DNA from: a virus | DNA length: 20,782 nucleotides | Strand: one strand, 5' to 3' | IMG/VR virus record: IMGVR_UViG_3300032117_000184 | Location: 1 to 20,782 of that record | Shown: one piece after another, positions 15,525 through 19,939 of the stretch | Position numbering within the stretch: the first letter of the stretch is position 1 | How the letters are laid out: every line of letters begins with the position of its first letter | Program-made: the position numbers and the translations under genes | Notes under the pieces: generated by a model | What the model was told of the DNA's origin: nothing | Databases searched by the model: none | The model's input: the letters and a program-made list of their open reading frames with translations, nothing else

Positions 15525-15740
15525 TTAAACATCTAATTTTGCCTTCTTTGGCAAATAATTTTCGTCTTGAAAATTTACCTCAAGTTTATCCTTAAGAGAT
15601 TTATTCACAAGTTTAGCGATATCCTCTGGTTCAATAAAGTTTTCTTTACAATATTGAAGGACAGCTTGCATATAACTGATTTTCTTTTCAAGAACGATCT
15701 GTTCAATATGCATTGAAAAGTCATTTGAAGATTTAAACAT
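15525..15740 (-). CDS. gp33: Late transcription coactivator, gp33-like
   Basis: The 71-residue product fits short gp33-type coactivators of T4-like marine phages: an N-terminal helix FSMHIEQIVLEKKISYMQAV, then LQYCKENFIEPEDIAKLV, NKSLKDKLEVN, and a C-terminal NYLPKKAKLDV that could reach RNA polymerase or the sliding clamp. In T4, gp33 links the clamp gp45 to polymerase carrying gp55 at late promoters. T4 gp33 is longer (112). The call depends on the pattern and on the position directly before gp59, as in T4. Its start overlaps the upstream gene by 8 bases. Confidence 0.65.
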   Translation of the reverse strand: MFKSSNDFSMHIEQIVLEKKISYMQAVLQYCKENFIEPEDIAKLVNKSLKDKLEVNFQDENYLPKKAKLDV

Positions 15741-16647: not shown

Positions 16648-16830
16648 TTACCAACTACCATCATCAATAACAAGCCGAATCGAAATTGGACCTAATATCA
16701 AATACAAACTGTACATTGACGGATCCATATCGTTTGGTTTATTAAACTCTTTATGAAATCTCCAATGATATGGATTTACTGCAAGAGAAACCCATATACC
16801 AGAATACTTAAGATAATTCTTTAACTGCAT
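16648..16830 (-). CDS. Small hypothetical protein
   Basis: From the ATG at 16830 the product is 60 residues. The open frame extends to a GTG at 16863 (71 residues), but no ribosome site supports that start. It contains GIWVSLAVNPYHWRFHKEFN and a C-terminal LILGPISIRLVIDDGSW, which resembles short conserved hypotheticals of T4-like phages. The function is unknown. Its start lies within the 3' end of the ClpP-like gene (22-23 bases of overlap), and its stop comes just before the Shine-Dalgarno site of the next gene, so it appears to be part of the same transcript. Confidence 0.6.
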   Translation of the reverse strand: MQLKNYLKYSGIWVSLAVNPYHWRFHKEFNKPNDMDPSMYSLYLILGPISIRLVIDDGSW

Positions 16831-17365
16831 CACATAATCCCATTTTCTTTGCTTCAATCGCACTTAACCAAATATCCTGAGGTGGAAGCAACATCTCACG
16901 AATTTCGGCTTCTTTTAAACCAGTACATTTTTTATAATGAGCAATCATTTTCTTTGTTGTTAAATCAAATTCTTTAACAGTTGCAAACAACTCATGCTCT
17001 TTACCAATTGCACCCCATGAATATTGATGGGATAAAATTGATGTGTTTGGAGTAAGAATTCGATGACCTGGACTTCCAGCAATAAAGATCATTAGACCAG
17101 CAGAAGCAACTTGACCAAGACCGATAGTTCTAATTGGAATTGCAGATCCACGCATTGTATCGATTAAAGCAAAAGCTGCATTTAAATCGCCACCAGGACT
17201 TGTGATAATTAAATTAAGAAGTTCTGGTCGTTCTTCAGCAAAGTTGGCTTCAAAGATCCATTCAACTGCATTCTTAACACTATTAAGGCTGATCTCCTCC
17301 ATCAGTAATAGAAAAGAGTGTTTGGATTGTTCCTCTTTCAGTTGCAGATTCAGTTTTGACATCAT
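16808..17365 (-). CDS. clpP: ClpP-like serine protease
   Basis: From ATG 17365 the product has 185 residues, near the ClpP size. All three catalytic residues are visible: Ser88 in GLGQVASAGLM, His113 in SILSHQYSW, and Asp164 in PPQDIWLSAIEAKKMGLCDA. The LNLIITSPGGDLNAAFALID segment is the usual ClpP oxyanion strand. ClpP forms a barrel fed by ClpX or ClpA; a phage copy may redirect host proteolysis or act on phage proteins. The start region overlaps the SleB-like gene by 83 bases. A TTG-type extension to 17404 is possible but has no ribosome site, and the ATG at 17302 would remove the first beta strand. A phage tmRNA lies about 2.3 kb away. Confidence 0.88.
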   Translation of the reverse strand: MMSKLNLQLKEEQSKHSFLLLMEEISLNSVKNAVEWIFEANFAEERPELLNLIITSPGGDLNAAFALIDTMRGSAIPIRTIGLGQVASAGLMIFIAGSPGHRILTPNTSILSHQYSWGAIGKEHELFATVKEFDLTTKKMIAHYKKCTGLKEAEIREMLLPPQDIWLSAIEAKKMGLCDAVKELS

Positions 17366-17891
17366 AGTATTTACCACTTTCTTTATAAAATATATGTCTA
17401 CCAATTACGGTAGTCTTCTCTAACTTCCACTTCGGATTAACATAATCTGCGTGATAATATAACGCACCTTTGGTTATATCTTTTAATTTCTCATAGTTAG
17501 CATAAACAAACAATGCTACATCTTTTGATTGTTGATATGCTGCACTTTCTTTATTAATTTTGAATGGGGCGCATACCCAAGAGAATTGACAAACAGTTAA
17601 ACCTTGCCAGAAGGTTTTTTGTTTAACAACTCCACATATATCTTTTGGAAATCGTGGATCTTGAGTTCTATTAAGCGTAACCATTGCGACTGCTTTTTTA
17701 CCATCTTCGGATTCATATCCTGCTTCATGGTAAATATTGTCTGCTAGACAATCAACTTCTTTTTGACTTTCCTTGGTTAATTGATTATAACCTACATCAA
17801 GTATTAATGAATCAGATAATGCATTTCTGGTTAGAAGTATTGCACAGATTCCTAATAATATAATTGGTATGTATATACGATATTTACGCAT
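17283..17891 (-). CDS. SleB-like cell wall hydrolase (endolysin candidate)
   Basis: The 202-residue product has an N-terminal membrane/signal-anchor segment (residues 6-21, IYIPIILLGICAILLT) and then a SleB/Hydrolase_2 domain (about 45-170). Key features are ADNIYHEAGYE with probable catalytic Glu56, the VAMVTLNRTQDPRFPKDICG helix, CQFSWVC, and GALYYHADYVNPKW ending with IGRHIFY. The family cleaves peptidoglycan glycan strands. An uncleaved N-terminal anchor would suit a SAR-type endolysin or a periplasmic wall enzyme. A strong AAGGAG Shine-Dalgarno site lies 6 bases before the ATG. A terminator just upstream separates it from the 91-residue gene. Confidence 0.88.
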   Translation of the reverse strand: MRKYRIYIPIILLGICAILLTRNALSDSLILDVGYNQLTKESQKEVDCLADNIYHEAGYESEDGKKAVAMVTLNRTQDPRFPKDICGVVKQKTFWQGLTVCQFSWVCAPFKINKESAAYQQSKDVALFVYANYEKLKDITKGALYYHADYVNPKWKLEKTTVIGRHIFYKESGKYYDVKTESATERGTIQTLFSITDGGDQP

Positions 17892-17945: not shown

Positions 17946-18221
17946 TCAGGTGGACTTTTTGCTATTAGTCTTAGTATCTAGTGGGATGTTTGAAACGAAA
18001 CCATTCAAAGCTGCTGCTTTTGCAATGATATCCGATTCGCTTGGGTAAGCAGGGAATCCAGGATGTTCTGGAACTGTGCCACCATTGATTTTAGCAGATT
18101 CGACTTTTACTTGCCAGTCGTTGCTAACTTGTTCACGTTTACCATAGTAATCCTCGGTAAGCATGTCTTTCGCCATTTTTAAAAGTTCAAGGCGAATCTC
18201 GAACGGAGTCATGTTTGACAT
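17946..18221 (-). CDS. Conserved hypothetical protein
   Basis: This 91-residue protein starts MSNMTPFEIRLELLKMAKDM, a pattern I recall from short conserved proteins of T4-like marine phages; a proline-rich middle (GTVPEHPGFPAYPSESDIIA) and a serine/lysine-rich tail follow. The N-terminal helix is amphipathic. I know no function. AGGAGAAG lies 5 bases before the ATG. A TATAAATA element at 18294-18287, together with a hairpin and T run in the leader, suggests its own transcript. A terminator follows its stop. Confidence 0.7.
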   Translation of the reverse strand: MSNMTPFEIRLELLKMAKDMLTEDYYGKREQVSNDWQVKVESAKINGGTVPEHPGFPAYPSESDIIAKAAALNGFVSNIPLDTKTNSKKST

Positions 18222-18294: not shown

Positions 18295-18820
18295 ATCTAA
18301 TAAAATTAAACTCTACTTCAGAATACTTATTTTGAAGAGCATTCCAATGTTTTCTCCACGCATCAATTCTTTGTTGCTCAGAATCTTTGTTAACATCATT
18401 GACATATGTACTTGTAAAACTTTCTACAGTATTAGTAAAGTAAGAATCACAACCATATATGTCAATAACATCAACGTACATATTTAAAACTAATGCAGCA
18501 GCAACATGCCCTGAACTGTACATTTCTGGAATTTTATAGTTAGTATCAATTATAATTACACCATAACGATTTTCAATATAATCCTGAAATTTTAATTCGC
18601 CAGCAGTTCGCCATGCTTGTTTAGTGACAAATATTTGATCTTCTTTACATTGAATTAAATTTGGTTTGGCAAACCATGCATGCATGATATTGCCATCCAT
18701 AATAACAGTACCATCAACAGTGGTCCAGGGAATGTTACATCCCATAACATAATCATACCCTAGTTTACCTTTAAAGGCAACTCTAGATGGTCCATTGCAA
18801 AGTACTGCTGCTGAAGACAT
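18290..18820 (-). CDS. Rossmann-like protein, possible glycosyltransferase, unknown
   Basis: The 176-residue product opens with AAVLCNGPSRVAF and GCNIPW. A hydrophobic strand followed by a GPS loop and a CN motif is also found at the start of sialyltransferase-like (GT42) and DUF115-like glycan enzymes. Later segments include TVIMDGNIMHAWF, IIIDTNYKIPEMYSSGHVAA, and VIDIYGCDSYFTNTVESFTS, which look like an alternating alpha/beta fold. I cannot assign a substrate; it could modify a glycan or be a distant relative with another job. Its ATG overlaps the GroES stop (TAATG), so it is probably translated with GroES and the outer-membrane protein. Confidence 0.5.
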   Translation of the reverse strand: MSSAAVLCNGPSRVAFKGKLGYDYVMGCNIPWTTVDGTVIMDGNIMHAWFAKPNLIQCKEDQIFVTKQAWRTAGELKFQDYIENRYGVIIIDTNYKIPEMYSSGHVAAALVLNMYVDVIDIYGCDSYFTNTVESFTSTYVNDVNKDSEQQRIDAWRKHWNALQNKYSEVEFNFIRL

Positions 18821-19080
18821 TATTCAGCCACTGCAACAATAAATTCTTCTTTGATCATAATGCGCTGAGCGTCACCAATCTTAACAACAGCACCTTTGTT
18901 CCATTCAAGGTAAATAACAGCACCGACTTTTACATCGGTGACATCTGGACCAATGGCTAGAACTGTACCTGTTTTTGATTGATCAAATCCAGCACCTTCA
19001 AGAATAATACCAGACTGAGTAGTATTTTCTCGTTTGTTCTCTGCTACGAGAACAAACTTTTTCATTGGTTTAATTTCCAT
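18820..19080 (-). CDS. groES: GroES-like co-chaperonin (T4 gp31 functional analogue)
   Basis: The 86-residue product is a GroES/Cpn10-type protein: KPMKKFVLVAENKRENTTQS and GIILEGA supply the N-terminal strand and the GroEL-binding mobile loop; KTGTVLAIGPD, KVGAVIYLEWNKGAVVKIGD and EFIVAVAE complete the barrel. T4 gp31 replaces host GroES to fold capsid protein gp23 with GroEL. This version is closer to bacterial GroES in motif and size (97 in E. coli) than to gp31 (111). Stop-start overlaps on both sides join it to the outer-membrane protein and to the 176-residue gene. Confidence 0.88.
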   Translation of the reverse strand: MEIKPMKKFVLVAENKRENTTQSGIILEGAGFDQSKTGTVLAIGPDVTDVKVGAVIYLEWNKGAVVKIGDAQRIMIKEEFIVAVAE

Positions 19081-19544
19081 TAGAATGAATACTTTAGACT
19101 TGCTTGAACAGTATTACCATCAAATGCGCTTACGCGATCTTGACCGTATTGACGATAGAAGTCAACACCTGCTTTAAAACCACCACCCAATGGAACAGAT
19201 GCGCCAGCACCAACACGCAACGCATATCCGTCAGCAGTTGATCCTACGTTGTTCAAATATGATGCGCCAACCTTTGGTGTTAGAGTAACATTACCAAGTT
19301 TGTAGATATCATAACCAGCAACAACGCTGTATTTGTCTTGGTTATTTGCTGATTGATTCAAACGAGAAAATTCTCCCTCAACAGAAACTTTACCAAATTG
19401 CTCACCAGCAGTTACACCATAGTGAGAATGGTTTTTACCAGAATCTTGATGTGATTCATCTTTAGCACCAAATACTCCAACTTCAACAGCCTGAGCGACA
19501 CCAAATGTTGCCAATAGTGCGATTAACAAAATACCTTTTTTCAT
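19080..19544 (-). CDS. Outer-membrane beta-barrel protein with signal peptide
   Basis: The 154-residue product has a classic signal peptide (MKKGILLIALLATFGVAQA, likely cleavage before VEVG). About eight amphipathic beta strands with polar loops follow (SVEGEFSRL, KYSVVAGYDIY, VTLTPKVGASYL, YALRVGAGASVPL, FKAGVDFYRQYG), and the C-terminus is SLKYSF, the aromatic beta-signal read by the BAM machinery. This points to a small 8-strand barrel of the OmpA/OmpX/OmpW sort, inserted in the host outer membrane. Possible roles are superinfection exclusion, adsorption modulation or permeability; none can be chosen from sequence. AAGGAG precedes the ATG. The gene is probably of host origin and is first in a three-gene cluster with GroES. 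Confidence 0.82.
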   Translation of the reverse strand: MKKGILLIALLATFGVAQAVEVGVFGAKDESHQDSGKNHSHYGVTAGEQFGKVSVEGEFSRLNQSANNQDKYSVVAGYDIYKLGNVTLTPKVGASYLNNVGSTADGYALRVGAGASVPLGGGFKAGVDFYRQYGQDRVSAFDGNTVQASLKYSF

Positions 19545-19567
19545 ATAACTCCTTAAATTAATAAAAT

Positions 19568-19598
19568 GGTTGGTTATTCTGTTACGAGGAAACCAACC
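19568..19598 (-). terminator. Terminator-like stem after the tmRNA
   Basis: On the minus strand GGTTGGTT (19598-19591) pairs with AACCAACC (19575-19568), an 8-bp perfect stem with a 15-nt loop, followed by ATTTTATTAATTT. It lies between the tmRNA tag region and the outer-membrane gene. The T tract is interrupted, so it could also be a 3' processing element of the tmRNA coding piece. Confidence 0.55.
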
Positions 19599-19615
19599 GA
19601 AACCCTAAGCAGCGT

Positions 19616-19648
19616 TTAGGCTGCTAATGCGAACAGTTCGTCGTTTGC
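19616..19648 (-). other. tmRNA tag reading frame, ANDELFALAA
   Basis: Codons GCA AAC GAC GAA CTG TTC, then GCA TTA GCA GCC TAA encode ANDELFALAA and a stop. With the alanine carried by tmRNA the added tag would be AANDELFALAA. E. coli adds AANDENYALAA, so only the ENY section differs. The resume codon GCA and the following AACGACGAA match E. coli exactly. The terminal ALAA is the signal that ClpX and ClpA read. Only 10 codons long, so it is invisible to ORF finding. Confidence 0.93.
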
Positions 19649-19732
19649 GTTTACGTTGTTTTAGTTTTTATGTCTTCTCTGACAAGTTGTCCACTTCTGT
19701 ACTTGTTGCCCTGTCGAAACCTAGTCACCCCC

Positions 19733-19833
19733 ATCAGAAACATACTATGGTGAAATTGACTTACATCGTAGAGGTCACGGCTTACCAATCCTGATCCCAA
19801 CCTTTCGGTTTTGTAGAGATTTAAGTATGCTTC
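19733..19833 (-). other. tmRNA intervening spacer removed on processing
   Basis: This 101-nt segment separates the CCA end of the acceptor piece from the G1 of the coding piece, as in other permuted ssrA genes. It contains a GNRA tetraloop hairpin, AACC-GAAA-GGTT (19810-19799). Removal would need host RNase P at G1 and 3' trimming at CCA. Its exact processing is inferred. Confidence 0.7.
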
Positions 19834-19910
19834 TGGTGGAGGTGGGGAGAATCGAACTCCCGTCCAGAACACTTTTCTAGTTGCTTCGTACAACCATCTC
19901 ACCTACACAT

Positions 19911-19939
19911 AGTATACTTTATTTATACCTGTTTGTCAA
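19911..19939 (-). promoter_or_regulatory. Strong promoter for tmRNA, with a late element in its spacer
   Basis: On the minus strand, TTGACA (19939-19934), a 17-bp spacer and TATACT (19916-19911) form a near-consensus sigma-70 promoter, with a start near 19904. The spacer contains TATAAATA (19927-19920), an exact T4 late element, whose start would be near 19914. The tmRNA could thus be read by host polymerase both early and late. Late use is inferred from the motif only. Confidence 0.78.

Follow-up and report, generated by a model that had tools for sequence, protein, structure and literature searches.

Phages with circularly permuted, i.e., two-piece, transfer-messenger RNAs (tmRNAs) are already known. 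Buchholz et al. (2022; PMC9004378) described the two-piece ssrA of the Methylophilales phage Melnitz, and their count of two-piece tmRNAs in phage genomes reached 53, with 50 being marine or aquatic; the tmRNA database holds 79 unique phage tmRNA sequences (PMC11915505). The viral contig IMGVR_UViG_3300032117_000184, analyzed here over a stretch of 20,782 nt (the window), adds another such gene on its minus strand. The first-pass annotation of this stretch had pointed to tmRNAs in related marine myophages, which the published survey bears out. The gene very probably encodes a functional beta-type permuted tmRNA that would be expressed from a host-type promoter, rescue ribosomes with the help of host SmpB and direct the tagged proteins to ClpXP.

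The complete permuted tmRNA gene, promoter included, lies within positions 19560-19939 of the minus strand. On this strand it is matched by RF01850 (beta_tmRNA) from 19953 to 19562 with 135.8 bits (E 8.6e-42, gathering score 84) and by RF04321 (tmRNA_permuted) from 19895 to 19616 with 131.3 bits (gathering score 47), and ARAGORN independently called a permuted tmRNA with the tag ANDELFALAA*. All three agree with the first-pass annotation, which had proposed a complete two-piece phage tmRNA without naming its strand and had suggested the Rfam comparison; the permuted models score far above their gathering scores, and beta is the best of the beta, alpha, and cyano models (135.8, 54.1, and 43.0 bits, respectively). 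The tRNA-Ala-like domain that characterizes RF04321 is present with its 7-bp acceptor stem including G3-U70, T-arm, and CCA, and so is the short tag frame with a resume codon and a ClpXP-type end, in the form of ANDELFALAA*. In the minus-strand order the acceptor piece (19899-19834) precedes the coding piece (19732-19566), and both would be transcribed as one unit from a single promoter. Read directly from the sequence, the acceptor stem GGGGGTG:CACCTCC is paired at 7/7 positions and contains the G3-U70 pair, as had been proposed, and the CCA end at 19834, G1 at 19732, and the spacer of 101 nt had been placed exactly. The range given at that time, 19600-19904, is too short, as it excludes the promoter at 19939-19911 and the terminal hairpin, which extends to 19568. 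The elements of the gene are as follows:

19911-19939, minus strand: sigma-70-type promoter TTGACA-17-TATACT (11/12), just upstream of the acceptor piece
19920-19927, minus strand: TATAAATA, an exact match to the consensus of T4 late promoters, located between the -35 and -10 elements of the tmRNA promoter; role uncertain
19834-19899, minus strand: acceptor piece with 5' P2 strand, T-arm, acceptor 3' strand CACCUCC, and encoded ACCA (Rfam, ARAGORN, sequence; 5' end approximate)
19891-19894, minus strand: P2 strand GUUG, pairing with CAAC 19689-19686 of the coding piece; GCUG/CAGC in relatives
19845-19861, minus strand: T-arm GGGAG-UUCGAUU-CUCCC (Rfam, sequence, covariation)
19834-19844, minus strand: acceptor 3' strand CACCUCC (19844-19838) and ACCA (19837-19834); predicted mature 3' end at 19834
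19733-19833, minus strand: spacer of 101 nt, predicted to be removed, with a 10-bp stem (19833-19824 with 19746-19737) and UGAU (19736-19733) directly before G1
19566-19732, minus strand: coding piece with G1, acceptor 5' strand GGGGGUG (19732-19726), GGUUUCGAC loop, 3' P2 strand, tag frame, and terminal hairpin; 3' end approximate
19616-19648, minus strand: tag frame with resume codon GCA, ANDELFALAA, and stop codon UAA (ARAGORN; tags of relatives)
19568-19598, minus strand: terminal hairpin GGUUGGUU/AACCAACC with loop UCCUCGUAACAGAAU, where tmRNAs usually have a pseudoknot; paired in relatives

Compared to these features, the tmRNA of phage Melnitz (MZ577097) is alike in many ways: it belongs to a T4-like phage, is permuted, encodes its CCA, and has a spacer stem right after CCA as well as TGAT before G1. 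However, it is alpha-type (alpha 106.7, beta 25 bits), and its authors reported a glutamine riboswitch (PMC9004378), while in the spacer of and around the window gene no Rfam match was obtained at E<=10 besides tmRNA and one chance match to a small RNA. The tmRNA of Pelagibacter phage HTVC008M (KC465899, 145161-145370) is likewise permuted and CCA-encoding and has a similar terminal hairpin loop (CCUCGUAACAGAA), but it is alpha-type as well (83.8 vs. 56 bits) and its T-loop reads UGCAAUA instead of UUCGAUU. The betaproteobacterial tmRNAs of RF01850 (Rhodocyclaceae, Accumulibacter), the best-matching Rfam model, share the permuted order and the T-arm and acceptor sequence with the window gene. 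Nevertheless, the Rhodocyclaceae tmRNA has a spacer of only ~4 nt after ACCA, another tag, and another 3' structure, and similarity outside of T-arm and acceptor is low. Cyanophage S-CAM3 (KU686198) provides another permuted tmRNA in a T4-like phage, which is cyano-type (127.2 bits) and has 6 nt from the acceptor strand to G1. In its public record (KU686198.1, 183013-183196) the hypothetical protein AOV58949.1 is annotated over the match, and in that of cyanophage BUCT-ZZ01 (ON615601.1, 116952-117248), which has a permuted tmRNA too, no tmRNA is annotated over the match.

Support for a structured RNA comes from the comparison of 89 distinct phage tmRNA copies, which are related to each other, so that counts do not represent independent events. 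In an alignment of 10 sequences, 97.0% of cells were paired and 20 of 44 pairs had changed on both sides; none of 500 shuffles reached the pairing of the real alignment, and slid registers were far lower too. Compensatory changes occur in five of the seven helices tested. Among them is the P2 pairing across the two pieces, which had already been proposed in the first-pass annotation and co-switches between GCUG/CAGC (52 copies) and GUUG/CAAC (23 copies). All 70 matched copies preserve complete pairing of the terminal hairpin despite 18 different stem sequences. In the 89 copies, CCA is immediately followed by the spacer stem, and in nearly all cases 4 nt (mostly UGAU) separate the end of this stem from G1. 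The stem has a mean length of 9.8 bp, compared to 3.4 bp in shuffles and 5.4 bp if halves of different copies were joined, and 92% of copies, vs. 3% of shuffles, have at least 7 bp. All 10 spacer-stem pairs show two-sided changes. Taken by itself, the spacer has a weak folding energy (z -1.26), and it is the comparison between copies that shows the stem. In addition, ACCA stands opposite UGAU with pairing possible at 3 of 4 positions, and therefore the precursor would be nearly a single uninterrupted hairpin that runs through CCA. The tag is conserved at both ends as well: all 83 readable phage tags start with AND, 80 of them end with LAA, and the middle is variable.

The gene is almost constantly present in the phage group. 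A T-arm scan of viral contigs yielded 113 stretches. With groES as query, permuted tmRNA was found in 27 of 35 loci, the remaining eight comprising two with a half gene, one contig that starts inside the gene tail, and five distant phages without shared neighbors. With clpP as independent query, i.e., without using tmRNA, we obtained 44 loci that span both clpP and the gene upstream of the tmRNA. We take this upstream gene to be PD-(D/E)XK-like, an identification of our own from the sequence and not from a family search. Permuted tmRNA occurs in 42 of these 44 loci, in 41 according to ARAGORN and in one ARAGORN-negative locus (L286) according to the covariance model (124.5 bits), while the other two are again the half gene. 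Thus, the gene is near-core in the group, and its site is fixed, with the PD-(D/E)XK-like gene on one side and the clpP-gp33-gp59-gp32 cluster on the other. The contigs stem from public metagenomes, and the phage of the window apparently comes from freshwater, which we judge from familiar sample sources rather than from a tool result. In the literature searched, which covered few subscription journals, we found no mention of beta-type copies being almost always present in this uncultured group of T4-like phages, of covariation or promoter evidence, or of the cassette exchange treated below, and we make no firm claim to priority. Eight other viral contigs (L023, L031, L047, L055, L071, L076, L115, and L116) carry tmRNAs in one piece, with acidic tags of greater length, e.g., ANDDVEIFEDFALAA.

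The half gene of the two exceptional loci (L118:5346-5540 and L120:1428-1622) is an alpha-type coding piece without acceptor piece beside the PD-(D/E)XK-like gene. From the start of the outer-membrane gene on in the downstream direction, both contigs are ~95% identical to the window; IMGVR 3300000439_000127 represents this lineage. The half gene carries the tag ANDNYAPFEIALAA, and its coding piece begins directly after the stop codon of the upstream gene; a search through 32 kb of contig revealed no acceptor piece. From UGAUGGGGGUG onwards it matches the intact alpha-type phage tmRNA of L221 with 91% identity over 115 nt, and its 3' part is similar to L128. Given the L221 match, a recombination event that did not carry the acceptor along explains this more simply than a split gene, and the half gene is probably a recombination remnant. 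L221 (5655-6058) and another contig, L200 (1400-1760), carry alpha-type permuted phage tmRNAs with the tags ANDNFAPFEFALAA and ANDNYAPFEIALAA, respectively; the acceptor stem of the latter is GGGCCAG/CUGGUCC.

As in the window, promoter-like sequences precede many of the related genes. At least 10/12 of a sigma-70-type promoter is found upstream of 51 of the 89 distinct tmRNA genes, and the mean best promoter score upstream of tmRNA genes is 9.8, compared to 7.9 in shuffles. The motif [ATC]ATAAATA occurs upstream of 29 of the 89 genes, with 4.3 expected from shuffles. A gp33-like late-promoter regulator is encoded at 15525-15740 of the window. Since the late-promoter consensus lies inside the host-type promoter, both early and late expression might be possible.

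From established tmRNA biology, a course of events from transcription, processing, charging, and SmpB use to tagging, proteolysis, and phage benefit can be envisioned. The host-type promoter at 19939-19911 would give rise to one precursor, folded as one long hairpin from the acceptor stem through ACCA/UGAU into the spacer stem. Enzymes of tRNA processing might then excise the spacer, with RNase P acting at G1 and 3' nucleases at CCA, while acceptor RNA and coding RNA would stay joined via the acceptor stem and P2. Host alanyl-tRNA synthetase would charge the molecule by virtue of G3-U70, and host SmpB would bring it to stalled ribosomes. On these, translation would restart at GCA and append (A)ANDELFALAA, which ClpXP would read as a degradation tag. 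The likely benefit to the phage would be ribosomes that are freed while host mRNAs are broken during infection. Neither 13 large viral contigs with a tmRNA (127-174 kb) nor two cyanophages yielded an SmpB match, while 10 of 14 control genomes were positive; therefore, the host would have to supply SmpB, as is assumed for other phages. Some points weigh against such a function. We found no report of processing or charging of a phage two-piece tmRNA, and the half-gene lineage indicates that the tmRNA may be dispensable, unless its acceptor piece lies elsewhere in that genome.

The surroundings of the gene are those of a T4-like phage, as the first-pass annotation had correctly stated: gp32, gp59, the late regulator gp33, tail tube, baseplate hub, and tail tube cap are encoded on the contig. 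Downstream of the tmRNA and on the same strand follow genes for an outer-membrane barrel protein, GroES, a cell-wall hydrolase, and ClpP, of which three are specified here:

19080-19544, minus strand: outer-membrane beta-barrel protein, the next gene downstream (PF13505)
18820-19080, minus strand: GroES-like co-chaperonin (PF00166)
16808-17404, minus strand: ClpP-like protease subunit (PF00574); residues aligned to the Ser, His, and Asp of ClpP are kept

The ClpP-like gene overlaps the cell-wall hydrolase gene (17283-17891, minus strand) by ~120 bases in different frames, and this overlap is kept in the relatives L118-L120. Upstream of the tmRNA lie a DUF2061 gene and a gene for a TctC-type tricarboxylate-binding protein (PF03401; 20151-20780, minus strand), which reaches the window end. 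The latter is unusual phage cargo and might hint toward a betaproteobacterial host.

This neighborhood invites a different view, in which the tmRNA would tag proteins that the phage's own ClpP helps to degrade, either to recycle host amino acids, as already proposed for phage Melnitz, or to remove host proteins. The ClpP gene belongs to the same run of genes, ~2.2 kb further downstream, its product has Ser, His, and Asp at the positions aligned to the catalytic residues, and both the order from tmRNA to ClpP and the LAA degron are kept in the group. However, the more distant phages L020, L043, and L054 possess a tmRNA without detectable nearby ClpP, and the half-gene lineage retains ClpP at 98% identity. 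Furthermore, the phage protein has only a remote resemblance to housekeeping ClpP (63 bits with TIGR00493, the cut-off of which is 309) and might serve another purpose. We consider a shared proteolytic role unlikely, and linkage to ClpP was rejected as proof of joint function, as it fails in the more distant phages. The broader proposal that tmRNA, GroES, and ClpP form one phage module of protein quality control, with the tag leading to a protease that contains phage ClpP, appears quite unlikely. Weaker still is the further idea that the tmRNA of L118 and L120 is split into two genes, with its acceptor encoded elsewhere.

As ssrA is a common integration site and fragments of it occur in prophages (discussed in PMC9004378), the gene might be a captured bacterial passenger that does nothing for the phage, for instance a relic of integration. 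Yet 42 of 44 loci keep it, compensation is seen in five of seven helices, tag and promoter are conserved, and divergence within phages has been long; because of this conservation we regard a passenger as extremely unlikely. Near-constant presence at one site, the host-type promoter, and the adjoining GroES and ClpP genes likewise argue for selection and not for accidental pick-up. A decoy or inhibitor of host tmRNA, in analogy to the tag-less tmRNA reported for mycobacteriophage DS6A (cited in PMC11915505), is very improbable: DS6A lacks the reading frame, whereas resume codon, tag, and stop of the window gene are intact and conserved. That host DNA was mis-assembled into the viral contig could be suspected because tmRNA is a bacterial gene, but dozens of independent contigs, some of them 160-175 kb in size, show this gene with the same phage neighbors, and this synteny already refutes mis-assembly, the chance of which we take to be negligible. 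A functional tmRNA that works with host SmpB and ClpXP hence remains the reading that we prefer.

With respect to its origin, the window gene is beta-like by score; since it lacks the final 9-bp hairpin of the RF01850 model, while the pseudoknot hairpin is present, it departs from typical beta tmRNAs of bacteria. Of 150 genomes sampled from the order to which a betaproteobacterial Sulfuritalea genome belongs, only 4 contain a permuted tmRNA. The T-arm scan gave 30 bacterial matches, mostly Accumulibacter and other Rhodocyclaceae, and none of these 30 lies outside the betaproteobacteria where the title names a group. Similarity to the bacterial genes compared is low and mainly confined to T-arm and acceptor. 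A recent capture from a host, which we considered as well, is not supported by similarity at the T-arm level only. The first-pass annotation had taken the phage copy to imply acquisition from a host with permuted tmRNA; this is not supported for a gene that resembles its bacterial counterparts so little, is near-universal and syntenic in the phage group and moves between phages, and any capture from a host is therefore old. Such movement is apparent from distances, as the allele follows its neighbor only loosely: distances of the coding piece correlate with ClpP distances at 0.15 and with distances of the protein encoded at 17946-18221 at 0.51. L121 and L134 are closest to the window by ClpP yet carry another tmRNA allele, while L072, farther by ClpP, has a coding piece that is 97% identical. 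On this comparative evidence, tmRNA alleles are exchanged between phages as a cassette at a fixed site, and with alleles moving in this way, the type of a tmRNA says little about the host when taken alone.
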